NCBI RefSeq assembly: GCF_000411255.1
Contig: NZ_KE150413.1
Location: 1,032,999 to 1,096,998, forward strand
Direction of reading: 5' to 3'
Length of the DNA stretch: 64,000 nt
Source: Paenibacillus sp. HGH0039
Lineage (GTDB): Bacteria; Bacillota; Bacilli; Paenibacillales; NBRC-103111
In this document: in pieces, positions 2,714 to 39,038 of the stretch
How positions within the stretch are numbered: the stretch's first letter is position 1
Layout: every line of letters begins with the position of its first letter
The notes under the pieces: model-generated
Databases searched by the model: none
What the model saw: only the letters and a program-made list of their open reading frames with translations
What the model was told of the DNA's origin: nothing
Translations under genes and position numbers: made by a program

Positions 2714-3922
2714 GTGAATCATTCCAATATTACACGCGGTAAAGCTGAAAGCCTAGATCGTTTCCTTTTGCGTATTGGAAATGATAAAGAGTTGTACGGG
2801 TTAGAAAATTGGCATCAAATTAGAGATGTTATGAACGCTGAATCAAATGAGGATTTTTCTGAATCAAAGTGGAGAAAGGATTATCATTTACTAAAACGCG
2901 GATACGATTTGCATCAAACTGAAATTAGTTCTGATGAAATAGTCATGTTGCATGAAGAAAAGAAGCTTGAGGCACAGAAGGAATACAAAAAGATTCAAGC
3001 TGTAAAGAATGAACTCAATAAGAATCTAAATAAAGCAGCTAGACGAGAAGTAATGTGGGATATGATAAAGGATTCCATTGAGAAGATTCCTGTTCCAAAG
3101 TTTCAGCCCATTATCTATCCACCTACAAGAGATAAGGTTGGTGTTCTATCCTTTGCCGATATCCACTTCGGCAAGTACTTTAAAAGTCTAAAGAATGAAT
3201 ATAGTGAAGATATTGCACGTGACAGAATGTCTCTGCTTATGGGCAATACGTTAGAAATCATTAGGCAGCATGGTTTTGAACATATACATATTATTAATGC
3301 GGCAGATTCGATTGAGGGAATGACACTTCGTACAAGTCAATTGCAATCTATACAAAGTGGAATTATTGATCAGACTATTAAATTCAGCAAGTTTATTGCG
3401 TCCTGGCTCAATGTATTGTCTCAGTATGTGAGAATAACCTATCATCATGTGCCATCTGCAAATCATTCAGAGATACGACCGTTTAACAGTAACCGCGGCG
3501 AGTATCCGTCGGAGGATCTGGAGAAAGTGATTATGAACTACGTTCATGATGTACTTGAAAATAACCCCAGAATTGAAGTTCCACTATACGATAAAGACTA
3601 TGTGAAACTAGATGTCTTTGGCTATAAGCTGTGGGCGTTGCATGGGCATCAGTTGAGGGGCAAAAAGAACGCTATTAGAGACTTGTCTGTATTGCATAGA
3701 GAATTTATTGATTATCTGTACATAGCTCACTTTCATCATGGCGGTACACTGACAGTTGGCGAAGGATTAACAAACGACATTGAGATTATTCAGATTCCAA
3801 GTGTAATGGGATCAGACGAGTATTCAGATTCGTTAATGACGGGAGCTAAAGCCGGTGCTAACTTCTCTGTATTTGAGAAAGATAAGGGTAGATCAATAAG
3901 TTATAGCATAAAACTAAATTAG
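2714..3922 (+). CDS. Calcineurin-like metallophosphoesterase
   Basis: A 402-residue protein. The N-terminal 70 residues are helical and HTH-like, followed by a charged coiled segment (about 75-120). The rest carries the metallophosphoesterase signature in order: D149-x-H151 (SFADIHFG), D198 (NAADSIEG), N250-H251 (SANHSE), H310-G-H312 and 339-342 AHFHH. All metal ligands appear intact, so it is probably an active phosphodiesterase or nuclease. The GTG start follows AAGGAG. Phage relatives are often encoded close to the terminase; the substrate is not known from sequence. Confidence 0.85.
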   Translation: MNHSNITRGKAESLDRFLLRIGNDKELYGLENWHQIRDVMNAESNEDFSESKWRKDYHLLKRGYDLHQTEISSDEIVMLHEEKKLEAQKEYKKIQAVKNELNKNLNKAARREVMWDMIKDSIEKIPVPKFQPIIYPPTRDKVGVLSFADIHFGKYFKSLKNEYSEDIARDRMSLLMGNTLEIIRQHGFEHIHIINAADSIEGMTLRTSQLQSIQSGIIDQTIKFSKFIASWLNVLSQYVRITYHHVPSANHSEIRPFNSNRGEYPSEDLEKVIMNYVHDVLENNPRIEVPLYDKDYVKLDVFGYKLWALHGHQLRGKKNAIRDLSVLHREFIDYLYIAHFHHGGTLTVGEGLTNDIEIIQIPSVMGSDEYSDSLMTGAKAGANFSVFEKDKGRSISYSIKLN

Positions 3923-4076
3923 TGAGTTAGTTTCAAGCACATCATGCCCTATTCGGTTTGGTGTGTTTTCATTTATTCATTAAATAATGGAGGCGGAGAA
4001 CGGTTAGTTCTTAAATTGGCCACTCCCTCCTTTCCGTCTTCATTTTTAAATTCAGGGAGTTAAGGATGGTGTGATT

Positions 4077-5114
4077 ATGGCTAGAGCAAGTGTAGCAAAA
4101 ACTAAAAATGTTCCTTTAAAAAAAGTTTGTACATGTTGTCTCAAAAGCAAAAATCTTAATACGGAGTATTGGATGTCAAATTCTAAATATCATGAAGACA
4201 AGAGATTTCATGTATGTAAGGAATGCTTGCTTGCCGATACCAATTCAAATGATTTGAAAAGTGTAAGAAGGACATTGCTCGTCTTGAATAGACCATTTAT
4301 TGCGAGTTTATGGGAATCTACTCTCGCTGAAGCAAACAATAAAAATTCAGATCCATTTGGCCTGTACGTGAAAAATTGCCAGATATCATACAAAGAATAT
4401 ACCTATGATGATAGTGATAAAGTGACATTTATTAGACCGATCAAGAAAGAAATCCTCCAAGATAGCGGTAATGAAGAAGACACAAGAAACGAAGAAGATG
4501 TAATTCGTATGCTTAGGTATGATCCTTTTGAAAATGAGCATCCATCAGATCGACGAAATTTGTTTAATAAATTGGTTGAGTTTCTTGATGAAAGTACCCT
4601 TGAAGATAACTTTAAGTTACCGGCAGTAATTGAAATCGTGAAGAGTTTCAATCAAATTGATAAATTGAATATCGCTCTTTCTAGAATCACTTCTGATACT
4701 GAGGCTGTCTCAGCTAATGCTGGTGGCGTCACCTCTCTAGTTACAGCAAAAGAAAAAATGCTTAAATCTGTGCTTGCACTCGCAAAGGATAACGGGATTT
4801 CAGTAAATCACAATAATAATAAGAGTAAAGGCGCCGGGACTCTTTCGGGGATTATCAAACAGTTGCACGAGAAAGGTATACACGCTGCAGATATAAATGT
4901 ATATGACATTGAAACATGTGACGGTATGAGACAAGTTGCAGATATAAGCAATAAAAGTCTGATGGACCAGTTGATGTTAAATGAAAATGATTATACCGAG
5001 ATGATCAAAGAGCAAAGGGAAATGATTTTAAAGTACGAGAAGGACTGTTCAAGGCTTGAAGAAGATAATAGAAATTTACACATTAAAATAAAGCACTTTG
5101 AAGACATGAATTGA
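4077..5114 (+). CDS. Zinc-binding protein, putative small terminase
   Basis: A 345-residue protein directly upstream of TerL. The N-terminus carries a four-cysteine zinc ribbon (CTCCLKSK at about 16-23, CKECL at about 49-53). The C-terminal 60 residues form a coiled coil (MIKEQREMILKYEKDCSRLEEDNRNL). The small terminase usually sits here and binds packaging sites; position and size fit, but no sequence motif proves it. ATG at 4077 is preferred over GTG at 4071 because AAGGATG gives better spacing. A hairpin-rich 150-base gap separates it from the phosphoesterase. Confidence 0.55.
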   Translation: MARASVAKTKNVPLKKVCTCCLKSKNLNTEYWMSNSKYHEDKRFHVCKECLLADTNSNDLKSVRRTLLVLNRPFIASLWESTLAEANNKNSDPFGLYVKNCQISYKEYTYDDSDKVTFIRPIKKEILQDSGNEEDTRNEEDVIRMLRYDPFENEHPSDRRNLFNKLVEFLDESTLEDNFKLPAVIEIVKSFNQIDKLNIALSRITSDTEAVSANAGGVTSLVTAKEKMLKSVLALAKDNGISVNHNNNKSKGAGTLSGIIKQLHEKGIHAADINVYDIETCDGMRQVADISNKSLMDQLMLNENDYTEMIKEQREMILKYEKDCSRLEEDNRNLHIKIKHFEDMN

Positions 5115-33224: not shown

Positions 33225-34337
33225 ATGCCAGAGCCTAAAAAAAATCCTAAAACGGAAACTTGGGAATTTGTCTTTGATTACTATGTCAAAGGTGTTCGTA
33301 AACAGGTCAGAAGAAGAGGATTCCAGACCAGAAAACAAGCAAGTAAAGCTATGATCGCTCTACAAAATGAAGTCTTAGAGGAAAAGTTTGTTTGCACGGA
33401 CAAGACAACGGTAGGGGCCTTTGTACAGAATTGGATTGATACAGTTAGAAAATTAGAAATTGACGAAACGACCATGTACAACAATAAACTTTATTTAAAG
33501 AATCACATTATGCCTCGAATCGGAAAAATGAGACTTCAAAAATTAGACCATATTGTTTGTCAGGAATTTGTTAATGAAATGCATGAGAAAGGTTATGCAA
33601 GAAATACGATAGACAGAGTTGTAACGATGCTGAAAAAGGCTCTTGATAAAGCTGTACAGTATAAATTGATTCGCGAGAACTATATGAGGCAGGTAACACT
33701 ACCTAGAGTAGTTAAAAAGGCAAAGGAAATATGGACAGCCAAGCAAGCGATCCAGTTTTTAAAAGCAACAGAGGACAGAAGATTTCATTGTGTGTATGCA
33801 TTAGCATTGTTGACGGGAATGAGGCAAGGAGAAATCCTTGGACTAAGATGGAAAGATATCGATTTTGAAAGACGAATTATTTCTATCAATCAAACGTTAA
33901 CTCATTATGGGAAGAGCATCAAGAGTGGTGCAAAAACTGCAGCGGGGATTAGAACAATTGCTATGCCTAATTTGCTTATAACGATTTTGAAGAAGCAGCA
34001 TGAAAAATACATTGAACTGAAGCAAAAACTTGGTGAGAAATTTATTGATATGGATCTGGTTATTTTCAATTTGTCTAATGGTAAAACAGTTTTTCCATCA
34101 AATTTGACTAAAGTTTATACGGCGGATGTAAAGAGAGCGGGACTTCCTCATATTACATTTCACTCTATGCGTCACACTCATGCAACAATGCTGATTGAGC
34201 AAAACGTAAATGTGAAATTGATTTCTGAAAGACTGGGACATTCTAAAATTGGAGTAACCCTTGATACTTACAGTCATGTGATTCCAAGTATGCAGCAAGA
34301 GGTCGCGGATACGATTGATGAGATCATGGTGATGTGA
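33225..34337 (+). CDS. int: Tyrosine-type phage integrase
   Basis: A 370-residue recombinase. The N-terminal arm-binding region (about 1-55) and SAM-like core-binding domain (60-155) precede the catalytic domain with R200 (TGMRQGEIL), H313-x-x-R316 (HSMRHTHATML), H339 (RLGHS) and Y349 (LDTYSHV), all intact. It catalyses integration and excision between attP and attB. The gene sits at the very end of the prophage, about 40 bases before the host gene fragment. GGAGGTATTTGA precedes the ATG. Confidence 0.96.
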   Translation: MPEPKKNPKTETWEFVFDYYVKGVRKQVRRRGFQTRKQASKAMIALQNEVLEEKFVCTDKTTVGAFVQNWIDTVRKLEIDETTMYNNKLYLKNHIMPRIGKMRLQKLDHIVCQEFVNEMHEKGYARNTIDRVVTMLKKALDKAVQYKLIRENYMRQVTLPRVVKKAKEIWTAKQAIQFLKATEDRRFHCVYALALLTGMRQGEILGLRWKDIDFERRIISINQTLTHYGKSIKSGAKTAAGIRTIAMPNLLITILKKQHEKYIELKQKLGEKFIDMDLVIFNLSNGKTVFPSNLTKVYTADVKRAGLPHITFHSMRHTHATMLIEQNVNVKLISERLGHSKIGVTLDTYSHVIPSMQQEVADTIDEIMVM

Positions 34338-34400
34338 CCACGTTGTGACTTTTAACTGATTTGGTTAGAAAGGCCTAGATTTATCAAGGGTTTGAGGACG
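34338..34400. other. Prophage-chromosome junction (att region)
   Basis: Composition changes from AT-rich to GC-rich here, right after the integrase. GTGAC occurs twice (34335-34339 and 34346-34350). The reading frame of yunC is open from 34379, after an in-frame TAG at 34376. The core att sequence cannot be placed because the other junction is outside the window. Confidence 0.7.
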
Positions 34401-34603
34401 ATTACATCCATCGCGGAGCACTTGATGTCGCCCTGCTGAACGAACGGCTGAGCGACCGCCAGATTATCGCCGCCCGTGCCACAGGTGTGAAAACAATCGG
34501 CGAGCTGCTCGACGCTCCGCTGGAATCCGTTACGCATACGGCCGAGGAGATGGGGATCTTCGCGGGCATGACCGGCCGTGACGCCATACTTAAAATGATG
34601 TAG
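34379..34603 (+). pseudogene. yunC: yunC (DUF1805) 3' fragment cut by the prophage
   Basis: The frame encodes 74 residues ending in the conserved C-terminal part of YunC/DUF1805: RGALDVALLNERLSDRQ, GVKTIGELLDAPLESVT, and GMTGRDAILKM. Intact YunC has about 100 residues, with a beta-rich N-terminal third and a GYIMCGALD motif. Here the N-terminus is missing and the text before GALD reads DDYIHR instead of GYIMC. No ribosome-binding site or start codon remains, so this copy is probably not expressed as YunC. Confidence 0.8.
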
Positions 34604-34697: not shown

Positions 34698-34726
34698 TTG
34701 TCCCAAAAGATCATTTGAGGTATAAT
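34698..34726 (+). promoter_or_regulatory. Promoter of the RRNPP regulator
   Basis: TTGTCC (34698-34703) and a consensus TATAAT (34721-34726) are spaced 17 bases. Transcription from here would give a leader of about 110 bases before the TTG start at 34842. Confidence 0.75.
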
Positions 34727-34841
34727 TCCCATGTAATGGAAAATACGTTCTCAAATTCTTTTATTGACCGATGTCCTAATAGATTTATTTTGTGATAGGG
34801 AAACCGGCAGGATTCGGTGGTTTTCAGAAAGTGGTGATGGT

Positions 34842-36203
34842 TTGGGGCCAAAAATAACTTCGATTCGCACACAATTGAAGAGCTATCTAGATCGCCGGCA
34901 GATGACGATTAACCAATTTGCGGAAGTATCCGGAATCAACTCCGGAACGTTGAGCATTATTTTGCACGGGAATCGTCCGATCGCCATGCAGCAGTTGGAT
35001 CGAATGACCGCCGGTATGGGGCTTCACGAAGGCCATTTCTATGACGTGTACATTGAAGAATGTTTTTTTCATTCGAATCCGGATTGGCGCAGATTGGGAC
35101 CGCTCATACACCGCTGTGCGGAGCTGGGCAAACTGGACCTCCTCTTGCGCGTGGTACGGCTGATGCTGGAAAATCTCTCGTATCTTCCTTTGTTATTTGA
35201 GACGGCCGAACACTTTCATTCGGAAGGAAGAAGAGAGGCTGCCGCGCTTTTGTATGAGTGCATTGCGGAAAGTGAAAAGTACCAGCATTCCGAAAGACTG
35301 GCCCTCTGTCAGTACCGGCTGTTTACCCTTGCCATAGGAGATGATCTAAAAGCTAATTTACGGGCGGCTACCTTATTCGAAAGCTATGTGCCCCGGTTAG
35401 ACGTATCGGATCAGTTGGATGCGCTGAATCAATTGGCTTATGTATTCGGGACTCTGCACGAATGGGAGAAGGTCGATACACTAGCCCAAGAGCTGCACCG
35501 GATTGCGGCCATTCAGTACCGGCTTGAGCCGGCTTCGGAACCCGGCAGGGAGGCTATCAAGCAGCCCAAACGTCCGCTTTGCTATTATATCCTCCAGGCC
35601 CTGCTGATCCGTTCGGTGGTATGTGAGGAACGCGGCCAATTCGATCAGGCGCTGCATTACGTTTCCTTGTACGCGGAACCGGACTGGCTACGGGAACAAT
35701 CGGATGAGGAGAAACGTATTGTCGAGCAGTTTAGAGAATGGGCGGTAGCGAACACTTATTTGTACCGCATCATGTCGGGAGAACTCATGGTTCTGCCCGA
35801 ATACATCAACTGCATCGCGTCCCGCAAGGACGATATTTTCACGGCACTCTGCAAAATCGTACAAATAGCCAATCGGTACGGATATGAGATCGACGACATT
35901 CTGGACCGCTTTTCTTCTCATCTTCCCTATCAAACCTATCAATCTGAATTTGGCGAATACAACAAGCCCGTTATGAAGGAGCGGTACGCCCAGTTTTTGA
36001 GCGATTTGGCCGCCTATCACTTGACTCAAAATCGTAGAAAAGGGATAAAGTTTGTACTGCACGGATTGGAATTTTCTGTTAGAATAAATAGTGAGAGAAA
36101 TATTATTCAATGTATGGCGCTTTTTGAAAGATTTAGGCACTTGGCGGGCATTGAAGAAAAGAATGAATTTAAACATTTAGTGAATGAGGTGCGATTAGGA
36201 TGA
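34842..36203 (+). CDS. RRNPP quorum receptor (HTH + TPR), Alo-like
   Basis: A 453-residue protein; TTG at 34842 follows GAAAGTGGTGA, whereas an earlier in-frame TTG at 34764 lacks a ribosome-binding site. Residues about 10-65 are a Cro/C1-type HTH (LDRRQMTINQFAEVSGINSGTLSIILHGNRP). The rest is about 380 residues of helical pairs typical of TPR repeats that bind a short peptide. Its stop overlaps by ATGA the start of an exported propeptide gene. This is the layout of RRNPP receptors (PlcR, AimR, and the Alo systems of Paenibacillaceae). It would control transcription according to the imported peptide; targets are unknown. Confidence 0.85.
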   Translation: MGPKITSIRTQLKSYLDRRQMTINQFAEVSGINSGTLSIILHGNRPIAMQQLDRMTAGMGLHEGHFYDVYIEECFFHSNPDWRRLGPLIHRCAELGKLDLLLRVVRLMLENLSYLPLLFETAEHFHSEGRREAAALLYECIAESEKYQHSERLALCQYRLFTLAIGDDLKANLRAATLFESYVPRLDVSDQLDALNQLAYVFGTLHEWEKVDTLAQELHRIAAIQYRLEPASEPGREAIKQPKRPLCYYILQALLIRSVVCEERGQFDQALHYVSLYAEPDWLREQSDEEKRIVEQFREWAVANTYLYRIMSGELMVLPEYINCIASRKDDIFTALCKIVQIANRYGYEIDDILDRFSSHLPYQTYQSEFGEYNKPVMKERYAQFLSDLAAYHLTQNRRKGIKFVLHGLEFSVRINSERNIIQCMALFERFRHLAGIEEKNEFKHLVNEVRLG

Positions 36204-36337
36204 AAAGAAAATTATCTGTTTTGCTCGTGCTGTCGAGTGTGGCAATTGCCGTTTTGGCTCCAAGCACGGGATTTTCAGCTCAACCGCAGACGCAAGTACA
36301 TAAGATCGTACAATTGGGGCATGGCTGGGGAAATTAA
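36200..36337 (+). CDS. Exported signalling propeptide (Phr/AloP-like)
   Basis: A 45-residue protein too short for usual gene calling. MKRK, a hydrophobic core (SVLLVLSSVAIAVLA) and FSA|QP form a Sec signal peptide; the remaining 18 residues end in LGHGWGN. The ATG overlaps the receptor stop (ATGA) and follows GAGGTGCGATTAGG. In RRNPP systems the C-terminal 5-8 residues are cut out, re-imported and bound by the receptor. The candidate here is GHGWGN; an H-G-x-G pattern also occurs in known Alo peptides, as far as I recall. A strong terminator follows. Confidence 0.85.
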   Translation: MKRKLSVLLVLSSVAIAVLAPSTGFSAQPQTQVHKIVQLGHGWGN

Positions 36338-36370
36338 CCCGGCAAATGAAAAGGATAGCAGCAGAAAGGG

Positions 36371-36402
36371 CATTCCCGGGTAATCCGGGAATGTCTTTTT
36401 TT
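36371..36402 (+). terminator. Terminator of the receptor-propeptide operon
   Basis: CATTCCCGG (36371-36379) pairs perfectly with CCGGGAATG (36385-36393), followed by TCTTTTTTT. Confidence 0.92.
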
Positions 36403-36475
36403 ATTCGGGGGAGAAGGCGTCTAAGCGTAATGTCATTCGAACGATATCCTATAATTTAACAGAAGGATGTAAAAT

Positions 36476-36559
36476 ATGACAAGAACAGAGGTAAAGGACA
36501 AGTTTTACATATTACCTATAGGAGAGTATGAGGATGGACGAAATTCATCAGCATATTGA
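36476..36559 (+). CDS. Possible 27-residue upstream reading frame
   Basis: AGAAGGATG lies six bases before an ATG that opens a 27-codon frame (MTRTEVKDKFYILPIGEYED...). It ends 26 bases inside the Spo0E-like gene in another frame. A weak TATAAT lies at 36450-36455. It may be a leader peptide coupled to Spo0E-like translation, or chance. Confidence 0.3.
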   Translation: MTRTEVKDKFYILPIGEYEDGRNSSAY

Positions 36560-36758
36560 AGAAATTCGTAGAGAAATGATGCGGCTGGCAGGGGAATATG
36601 GTTTTTCCGATTCCAGGGTTCTAACTAAATCTCAGGAATTAGACCGTGTTTTGAATACCTATCAGCGGGAGAAATGCAAGCTCAAGGAGCAAAAGTACCC
36701 GGGTGTTATTCATCTAAGCCTCTCTTCTGTAACCGGTCCCGCTGAATTCATAAATTAG
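36534..36758 (+). CDS. Spo0E-like aspartyl-phosphate phosphatase
   Basis: A 74-residue, two-helix protein of the Spo0E family: HIEEIRREMMRLAGEYGFSDSRVLTKSQELDRVLNTYQ with the signature SQELD at residues 33-37. Spo0E-type proteins remove phosphate from Spo0A-P and so delay sporulation. ATG at 36534 is preferred to 36528 because of its spacing from AGGAGAG. It lies about 200 bases after the quorum operon, from which a terminator separates it, so any link is through the regulator rather than read-through. It is longer at the C-terminus than the minimal family. Confidence 0.88.
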   Translation: MDEIHQHIEEIRREMMRLAGEYGFSDSRVLTKSQELDRVLNTYQREKCKLKEQKYPGVIHLSLSSVTGPAEFIN

Positions 36759-36770
36759 GAGAATACCCGT

Positions 36771-36971
36771 ATGCCTACTTCGATTATTCAATTGTTCAAT
36801 TCCGATCAGCTCATCATTGTGATGTTTTTGATGTGGGTGCTCATAAGCGCCATGTTTATGGTATTCCATCTGGACGGTAAAAAAAGCAAGCGTACACGTA
36901 ATAAAGTTGACCCGAAGCGGGAAGAACTGCCTGAACACGAGCATCGTAAAAATGAACGAGGGCTGCTTTAA
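36771..36971 (+). CDS. Small single-span membrane protein
   Basis: A 66-residue protein, 12 bases after the Spo0E-like gene and probably co-transcribed with it. One transmembrane segment (about 13-33, LIIVMFLMWVLISAMFMVF) is followed by a strongly charged cytoplasmic tail (KKSKRTRNKVDPKREELPEHEHRKNER). No family is recognised. A hairpin covers its stop codon. Confidence 0.6.
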   Translation: MPTSIIQLFNSDQLIIVMFLMWVLISAMFMVFHLDGKKSKRTRNKVDPKREELPEHEHRKNERGLL

Positions 36972-37287: not shown

Positions 37288-38964
37288 TTACGGAGTCAAC
37301 TTCGGCAGCGTCGGAATGGTCTGGCTGCAGTCGCCTGCCAAAGGCAGGTTGCGGCACACATACTGGCCCGCGCTGTTCTCGGTGGCGCCGTCTGAAGGGG
37401 CTGGCAGATGAACGCGCTGCTTCCACAACTGCCAGAGCATGAAGCCGTCAAACGACTTGCCTTTGTTTTTGACGTATTTGACAAGCGTCTCCACGTTGTA
37501 GTAAGCGGAGGCGACGTTGTTCTGGCCGTTCAGCATTTCGGCGTCGTAGACGGTTCCCGGTGCGGCATTCAGCTTCAGTACGGCACCGCCGGAGCCTTCG
37601 GGCGCAATCTGCAGGCCCATGTTGATCGTTCCGCCGTAGATGGCGCGGTACGATTCGTAGCCTTCGCGCGGATCGTAATAGACGCCGCCGTCGTAGGACA
37701 TGAGGTTGATCATGTCGATTTTGCTGCCGTGATCTTTCACGACGCGGTACATCGTTCCGCCGAACGGCGAGCCGTACTGGACTTTGCCTTCTTCGAACGG
37801 CGAGCCTTTCACGTAGTAGGCTCCCGTGGACCAGCCGGCGATGGAGATTTTCAGCTTCGCGCCCCGTGCCTTGATTTCGTTGTACAGGCTGTTGATGATG
37901 CCGGCGATTTCGGCGTCTTTGGAACAGCTGAACGATTCGGCTGCGGCTTTGTTGCAGTTGCTGCCGCTCGATTCCCAGTCGATATCCACGCCGGAAGCGC
38001 CGAGATCCAGCGCGAGGTCGACGACATGCGGCGCGTTGAAATTCGCCCACTGGCTGCCTTGGCTGTAAGACCAGCCGCCCACGGAGAGCCACGTGTCCGT
38101 TCCGCGCGCATCCAGTGCGGCGATGCTGCTGCGCAGATCCTGGGACTGCTGCGGCGTAAACTTCAGCTGGCCGCGGCCCGTAGTGGCGCCCTCGACAAAC
38201 TCAAAGCCGGCAACTTCCTGGTCGAAGGCGTAAGAACCTTTGACATACTTCGTATCCGGTCTGGCGAAAGACAGGTTGACATCCGTGATGTAATTCGGGA
38301 TGTTCTCCAGCTTCAAATCGTAGATGCTGGTGTTCCAGGTACTGGCGTAGGCCACGTACCTGCGGTCCGGGGAAGGCGTGGTTCCGCCTTCCGGTGTCGT
38401 CACGCTGACCGGAGCGCTTGCGGCCGATACGTTGCCGGCCGCGTCCTTGGCCTTCACGGTAAAGCTGTAGGCCGTCGAGGCGGTAAGGCCGGTGACGAGG
38501 GCTGTCGTTCCCGTCACGCTGGCGGCAAGAGCCGTTCCCTGATAGACGTCGTAGCCCGTCACGCCGACGTTGTCCGTCGAGGCTGCCCATGACAGGGAGA
38601 CGCTTGTGCTCGTGGAGGCGGTTGCCTTCAGCCCGGAAGGAACGGATGGCGCCTGCGTGTCTGTCGTGCCGCCGCCGGTGGAGCCGCAGTCGCTCACATA
38701 CTTCCAGGCGCCCCAGGTGTTCGCCGTGTTGGGCTGTTCCCCTTGCGTCCACCATTTGGCTTCGAAGGTCTTGCCGGAGTAGGAGACTCTTTTGCCGGCC
38801 GTGTAGGCGGTTGTAGAGTTCCAGGCGGGGTCTTGGCATGCCGCCGCAGCCGTACCGGCCGCATGAGCCTGGCTGGAAGCCAGAGCAGGCACTACGCCGA
38901 GGCCAAGCGTGAAGGCGAGAGCAAGGTGAATCATTTTTTTTCGGGGAGTTGCGTAAGAAGTCAT
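37288..38964 (-). CDS. Secreted GH18 chitinase
   Basis: A 558-residue exported protein. It has a signal peptide (to about 35, SQAHA), a CBM5/12 chitin-binding module (about 42-90, [31 protein letters not shown]), a fibronectin-III domain (about 105-195), and a GH18 barrel from about 200. The barrel has [14 protein letters not shown] with catalytic Glu near residue 331, MSYD and a final W (LWQLW). It releases chito-oligosaccharides outside the cell. ATG at 38964 or TTG at 38967 can start it after AAAAAGGAG. A cre-like site upstream suggests repression by glucose. Confidence 0.92.
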
Positions 38965-39038
38965 CAATCGGTACGCTCCTTTTTAATTGAGATAAGTGCG
39001 GGTTCTGCCGGTAAGCGGGTTGAATAGGCCTCCTTTTT

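Follow-up and report, generated by a model that had tools for sequence, protein, structure and literature searches.

Within a 64,000-nucleotide stretch of the genome of Paenibacillus sp. HGH0039 (the window), the gene for a putative peptide receptor overlaps a frame of 45 residues that could encode its peptide, and the locus raises the question of which gene such a pair controls, and through which DNA site. Judged from the sequence, what is new here is a long-spacer element before spo0E in this branch of the Alo family, which we predict to be an operator; the pair itself is of a kind known in Paenibacillus. The predicted operator is the useful part, since a defined DNA site would let the gene targets of an Alo receptor be tested, and would also test whether long-spacer operators reach beyond the AimR receptors of phages.

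An overlapping receptor and propeptide

The receptor gene, aloR, occupies positions 34842-36203 of the forward strand. It starts with TTG and encodes 453 amino acids, that is, an N-terminal helix-turn-helix (HTH, residues ~8-58) followed by helical TPR-like repeats up to the C-terminus. The ribosome-binding sequence GGTGAT lies just ahead of the start (34833-34838, forward strand) and is kept in P. chitinolyticus NBRC 15660 (L031) and Paenibacillus sp. UNC499MF (L032), whose receptors are 97% and 89% identical to that of the window. The first-pass annotation, made from the letters alone, had described exactly such a receptor, and this description is borne out: HTH_26 is the only Pfam match (1.3e-3, below that model's cut-off), and an AlphaFold model (pLDDT 89.3) consists of an HTH and an all-helical TPR-like superhelix with TPR-type structure matches. 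On this model and the sub-cut-off HTH_26 match, AloR has the layout of the RRNPP superfamily, an N-terminal HTH with a C-terminal TPR-like domain. The TPR repeats are not seen by sequence search in the window's AloR, and TPR models match a minority of 55 relatives (six for the best of these models).

Many unrelated TPR proteins appear among the structural matches, with scores as high as those of NprR, Rap and PlcR, and a Foldseek search with the model returned no match reaching E 0.001. Thus, the fold alone cannot place AloR. A search of NCBIfam gave no match to the PlcR, NprR or Rap families, to which the likeness is one of fold only, and the AimR model NF038310 reached 14.3 bits against a cut-off of 70. 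Among known receptors, the homology is to the AloR type, at 31-33% identity, as described below.

The consensus promoter that had been assigned to the unit fares less well. A match is indeed present (TTGTCC-N17-TATAAT, 34698-34726, forward strand), but consensus matches around aloR occur at the rate of chance (four against 3.9 expected), and this one is only partly kept in L032; we regard it as a possible aloR promoter.

The second frame, aloP (36200-36337, forward strand), overlaps aloR by ATGA and encodes a propeptide of 45 residues. Its N-terminus, KRK followed by a hydrophobic stretch, is of the exported type by sequence, and the tail past residue 27 comprises 18 residues ending in LGHGWGN; overlap, length and tail are all as first claimed. 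The 45 residues are identical in the window, L031 and L032, which are the three of five species of the genus that have the receptor, so none of these three genomes shows a retained receptor without its small frame, a pattern that had been named as grounds for rejecting the pair. At the codon level, the window's aloP differs from that of L031 by six synonymous changes and no others, and from that of L032, the most distant, by nine synonymous and no non-synonymous changes, while pN between the same two genomes is 0.053 for aloR and 0.11 for spo0E. An identical peptide with only synonymous codon changes implies that the propeptide frame is more than a chance frame.

Membership in the Alo family

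Voichek et al. (2020) defined the Alo family by its receptor-propeptide layout, and the signal of its member AloP13 is SHGRGG (PMC7425212). In a B. subtilis reporter, AloR13 turns on the adjacent spo0E, and SHGRGG shuts it off (PMC7425212). At the window we find homology over the full length of the receptor, a downstream frame of 45 residues (the family's range is 32-50), a downstream spo0E-like gene, as in a subset of the family, and a Paenibacillaceae-type host, the nearest named records being P. chitinolyticus and Paenibacillus sp. UNC499MF. By analogy with SHGRGG and with the HGxG motif described below, the mature signal here is probably GHGWGN, encoded at 36317-36334 (forward strand).

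Alo13-type loci were identified by the codon pattern of SHGRGG, which has 18 matches in 75 genomes; we retain four, the others (L147 and L152-L164) not being Alo loci with a full receptor. The published Alo13_R primer site is found, by eye, at the start of spo0E in L149 and L150 (PMC7425212). The window's AloR is 31-33% identical, over residues 6-434 or 6-450, to the four receptors beside SHGRGG propeptides. We considered orthology with Alo13 and reject it, because the SHGRGG receptors fall outside the window's clade in a tree of 122 of 124 candidates (L036 and L134, which are short before a stop, were omitted). The identity and the tree together support, at the level of sequence, an Alo pair that belongs to another branch than Alo13. 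Like AloR13-AloP13-spo0E of P. polymyxa (PMC7425212), this pair combines an HTH and TPR-like receptor, an overlapping or adjacent propeptide, an HG.G hexapeptide at the C-terminus (SHGRGG there, GHGWGN here) and a spo0E gene just downstream; it differs from AloR13-AloP13 in its 31-33% receptor identity, in its recognition helix and in the sequence 5' of spo0E.

The nearest signal to GHGWGN in the tree belongs to Paenibacillus sp. Root52 (L088), on a neighbouring branch of weak support (0.148), whose propeptide ends in VLGHGWGT. This pair differs from the window's in receptor identity (51%), and neither a Spo0E gene nor the element was found beside L088.

We also asked how general this arrangement is. 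A profile search of GTDB genomes gave 311 related stretches, and the counts that follow rest on the best 80 of these, which form 79 distinct loci; an alignment was made of 54 of them together with the window (L036, which has an internal stop, was omitted, and 24 were unchosen). All of these best 79 loci are labelled Paenibacillus or 'Bacillus sp.' FJAT-27264. A propeptide candidate, defined as a small exported-type frame 3' of the receptor by a simple charge-and-hydrophobicity rule, accompanies 74 of the 79 receptors; in 70 of these 74 its start falls inside aloR or coincides with the end of that gene, and 72 of the 74 carry HGxG within the last 14 residues, as compared with about 1% after shuffling. 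In 39 of the best 79 loci, a Spo0E-like gene follows at a distance of no more than 2.5 kb. In P. terrae NRRL B-30644, for which Voichek et al. counted a record 40 AloRs (PMC7425212), we obtain 43 profile matches, fragments included, and 30 receptors at 30-48% identity to the window's AloR. The proposal that the pair is an RRNPP system of the Alo type thus agrees with receptor homology (31-33% and 30-48%), gene order, overlap, propeptide size, the HG.G tail and the downstream spo0E. It had also been suggested that the pair and its peptide may be undescribed. Within the literature searched, which did not include the supplementary tables of Voichek et al., this stands for the pair and the peptide, but the Alo family has been described, and Table S2 of that paper may already include the receptor of P. 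chitinolyticus; the pair is an ordinary addition to the family.

Several variations on the layout deserve mention. The propeptides just after the receptors of L007 and L015 carry the likely signal twice within one small protein (IHGSGQ and SHGDGY, respectively). In L074 the Spo0E-like match lies inside a frame of 530 residues, 280 bp past the receptor stop, rather than in the usual protein of ~60 residues. Copy number also varies: G007 has 17 AloR-like matches and P. terrae (G059) 43, several of them broken by stops, and the window's genus has one copy in each of the three of its five genomes with an Alo receptor.

A long-spacer element upstream of spo0E

The likely target of the pair, a gene that was absent from the first-pass annotation, is a Spo0E-like gene at 36528-36758 on the forward strand (PF09388, E 1.1e-13), which may begin at its second ATG (36534). 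Between aloP and this gene stands an intrinsic terminator (36363-36401, forward strand), which confirms the earlier call of a terminator after the pair: its stem folds at -25.1 kcal/mol (z -6.74), although a consensus terminator scan missed it. Since this terminator is strong, spo0E is expected to form a separate unit. Further downstream is a small frame with one hydrophobic stretch (36771-36971, forward strand), which is conserved in L031 and L032 and has no Pfam match. A GH18 chitinase (37288-38967), which has CBM5/12 and fn3 domains, is encoded convergently to the Alo-spo0E unit; like that unit, it is missing from the corresponding region of G004.

In the region between terminator and spo0E we find the predicted AloR operator, ATGTCA (36430-36435)-N21-TAACAG (36457-36462), on the forward strand. 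The element spans 36430-36462 and is followed, 6 bp on, by GTAAAAT (36469-36475, forward strand), the predicted -10 region of spo0E; the whole arrangement is kept in L031 and L032. It is an instance of a more general type, an ATGTCA-N21-TGACAT inverted repeat 6 bp ahead of a CTAAAAT box.

This type was derived from the regions upstream of spo0E. One locus (L047), whose spo0E lies 1.85 kb off, was omitted at first reading; from the other 38 and the window, 20 non-redundant regions, including that of the window, were used. The 8-mers TTTTACAT and CTAAAATA occur in eight and seven of these 20 regions, respectively, and the highest count in shuffled sequence was four. We anchored the element on its right half-site, T(G/T)(A/G)CA(T/G), and the CTAAAAT box 6 bp on. 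In the left half-site, which was unused in the anchoring, the G at the third position is fixed in all 20 regions. Moreover, when the left arm is compared with the reverse complement of the right arm, agreement peaks at a spacer of 21 (3.45 of 6 positions) and lies at 1.0-2.1 for the other spacers from 4 to 44. Covariation between the arms is unconvincing: one pair of arm positions is complementary in 11 of 20 regions.

We built a weight matrix from the 20 regions and retained scores of at least 14 within 2.4 kb downstream of aloR. Among the best 79 of the 311 stretches, all 39 loci with spo0E pass, those outside the 20 regions being close relatives of the training regions, as do four of the 40 other loci. 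In 1.74 Mb of strand, once these sites and their readings on the opposite strand are set aside, two chance matches remain (14.7 and 14.1); in 2000 shuffled regions the 99th percentile is 9.6 and the largest score 16.9. In leave-one-out trials 17 of 19 regions score at least 14, and the remaining two fall below it, the lowest at 13.1. With a matrix built without the window's clade, the window's site scores 15.3, the highest in the 64 kb, and the next match 13.9.

Does the element simply accompany spo0E genes? The five genomes of the genus hold 21 Spo0E genes; the three beside alo score 19.2 within 400 bp upstream, and the other 18 score 6.4 or less. By these scores, in this branch the element tracks aloR, not spo0E as such. 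In the four other element-bearing loci, the element stands ahead of what looks like a broken spo0E in L096, of a second AloR-like frame in L084 (at 6567), and of apparently signal-bearing proteins of ~220 residues in L036 and L038. These sequences suggest that the second AloR-like frame and the ~220-residue proteins are other Alo targets. The ~220-residue proteins have a signal-like start and follow the element at 6801 in L036 and at 6501 in L038; the aloR of L036 is interrupted by a stop.

Among more distant relatives the picture is mixed. Of nine distant relatives that bear spo0E, the element is found in four (L004, L005, L006 and L025, in the last ahead of the second of two spo0E genes) and is missing in L009, L010, L011, L015 and L021, with weak versions in L010 (9.3) and L021 (11.1). 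Two G007 loci lacking spo0E score 15.2 (L022) and 15.7 (L026), and are probable chance matches. The element is found in none of the 11 P. terrae Alo-spo0E loci and in none of the four Alo13-type loci, so that the one member with proven control of spo0E, Alo13, is without it; L027 was too short to score in this comparison. In several of the P. terrae loci the left arm is gone, and what remains is the CTAAAAT box together with CAT where the right arm would be. The consensus recognition helices differ by group (SGTLSNI, PGTVSGI and RGIFSAM), and such differences could explain why the element is missing from distant Alo groups.

In the open-access literature searched we found no published Alo binding site. 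A similar design is that of the AimR-AimP arbitrium systems of SPbeta and phi3T, in which, as predicted here, a long-spacer inverted repeat lies between the peptide gene and the controlled gene, and the peptide turns expression off. The AimR operator consists of two 6-bp boxes with a 25-bp spacer, as opposed to 21 bp here, and is called unusual there (PMC6458997); AimR is moreover phage-borne, and its model scores AloR far below cut-off. Because most of the more distant Alo loci lack the element, we lean, with slightly reduced confidence, towards the view that the N21 element is this branch's AloR operator. Another candidate operator was rejected: a perfect inverted repeat, ATGTAAAA-N27-TTTTACAT (36468-36510), is kept in three congeners and nowhere else, with a shuffle P of 0.05-0.08.

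Proposed mechanism and alternatives

Taken as a whole, we consider it probable that the Alo receptor-pheromone pair controls the adjacent spo0E-like gene via the long-spacer element. Our analysis shows the gene anatomy and its conservation, membership in the family at the sequence level, a predicted fold, the terminator and the conserved element; to these we carry over, from AloP13/AloR13 (PMC7425212), the processing of the peptide, the direction of control and the link to Spo0A. By this analogy AloP would be exported and then cut down to its C-terminal end, probably GHGWGN; this peptide would be re-imported and bind the TPR-like domain of AloR. Peptide-free AloR would sit on the inverted repeat at 36430-36462 and activate the spo0E promoter; peptide binding would end this activation, so that dense populations would make less of the Spo0E-like phosphatase, allowing Spo0A~P to rise. 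The net effect would be that crowded cells probably switch off a neighbouring brake on spore formation. With one Alo receptor per genome in three of the five genomes, the genus would offer a cleaner model than P. polymyxa, with at least 16 systems, or P. terrae, with about 40.

A broader reading, to which we give slightly less than even odds, is that a large Alo branch including the window uses an AimR-like ATGTCA-N21-TGACAT operator as a portable switch that can be set ahead of spo0E, of a second aloR or of a secreted protein, and that in other branches the recognition helix and the operator have both changed. Were this so, the DNA site as well as the peptide could separate the many parallel peptide channels of a genome.

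The pair might instead be real while AloR acts elsewhere or through another site, the element then belonging to another regulator or to a sigma factor that drives such spo0E promoters. The absences from the Alo13-type loci, the P. terrae Alo-spo0E loci and five of the nine other distant ones would fit this, as would the finding that 36 of the 40 loci without spo0E have no element in 2.4 kb even though this element-less group shares the consensus recognition helix. Against it, the 18 Spo0E genes of the five genomes that are not beside alo lack the element, and in three loci it precedes other kinds of gene next to aloR; we judge this explanation unlikely. Far less likely still is that the peptide works extracellularly, perhaps signalling to other strains or inhibiting them, with AloR in practice an orphan. 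Uptake is here a proposal, and the three genomes of the genus with any Alo receptor have just one; against this stand the overlapping frames, both kept in 3/3 congeners and in 74 of the best 79 relatives, and the published precedent of Alo13 (PMC7425212).

The adjoining prophage invites a further alternative, namely that the pair is an arbitrium-like (AimR-type) lysis-lysogeny system. An integrase (33225-34337) lies to the left of the Alo locus and ends 505 bp upstream of aloR, and both the architecture of the receptor and the long-spacer repeat resemble AimR. The prophage, of ~47 kb, is nevertheless delimited by a DUF1805 gene (the domain is from Pfam), which we take to be yunC-like. Residues 2-44 of this gene are encoded at G000:C2:1020148-1020276, and residues 33-103 at 1067386-1067598, or 34388-34600 in the window; the overlap, attR, is at 34388-34423 (no strand assigned). 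Since the att sites split the gene, the prophage ends near 34388-34423, and aloR begins ~430 bp further on, outside it. We thus reject a prophage-encoded Alo system; location inside a phage or prophage, a hallmark of AimR, is not found here. The integrase end of the insertion and the right part of the yunC-like gene together lie at 33225-34603 of the window, and this right part is present in all five genomes of the genus. In G004 the gene is intact, and prophage and Alo locus are both absent; between its yunC-like and DinB genes the block that runs from about 34.7 to about 40.9 kb in the window is lacking. L032 keeps the Alo locus with a different integrase, of 386 residues, at the same place. 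Together with the low score of the AimR model, these observations make a lysis-lysogeny function the most improbable of the alternatives, and control of spo0E by the Alo pair remains our preferred reading.

Relatives of AloR do occur on mobile elements elsewhere, as their presence in viral, plasmid and phage records indicates. A 96% identical aloR stands at the very end of an IMG/VR record (L188, UViG_2848028059, 3001-4359); as the window's aloR lies outside the prophage ends, this record is likely an over-extended prophage boundary. Beyond it, relatives are found in 19 further viral-collection loci (39-48% identity), bringing that collection to 20, in 35 plasmid records and, more distantly, in two phage records. 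Brevibacillus phage SecTim467 (KT151957.1, 67468-68790) encodes a 28% identical AloR-like protein, annotated only as a putative DNA-binding protein.
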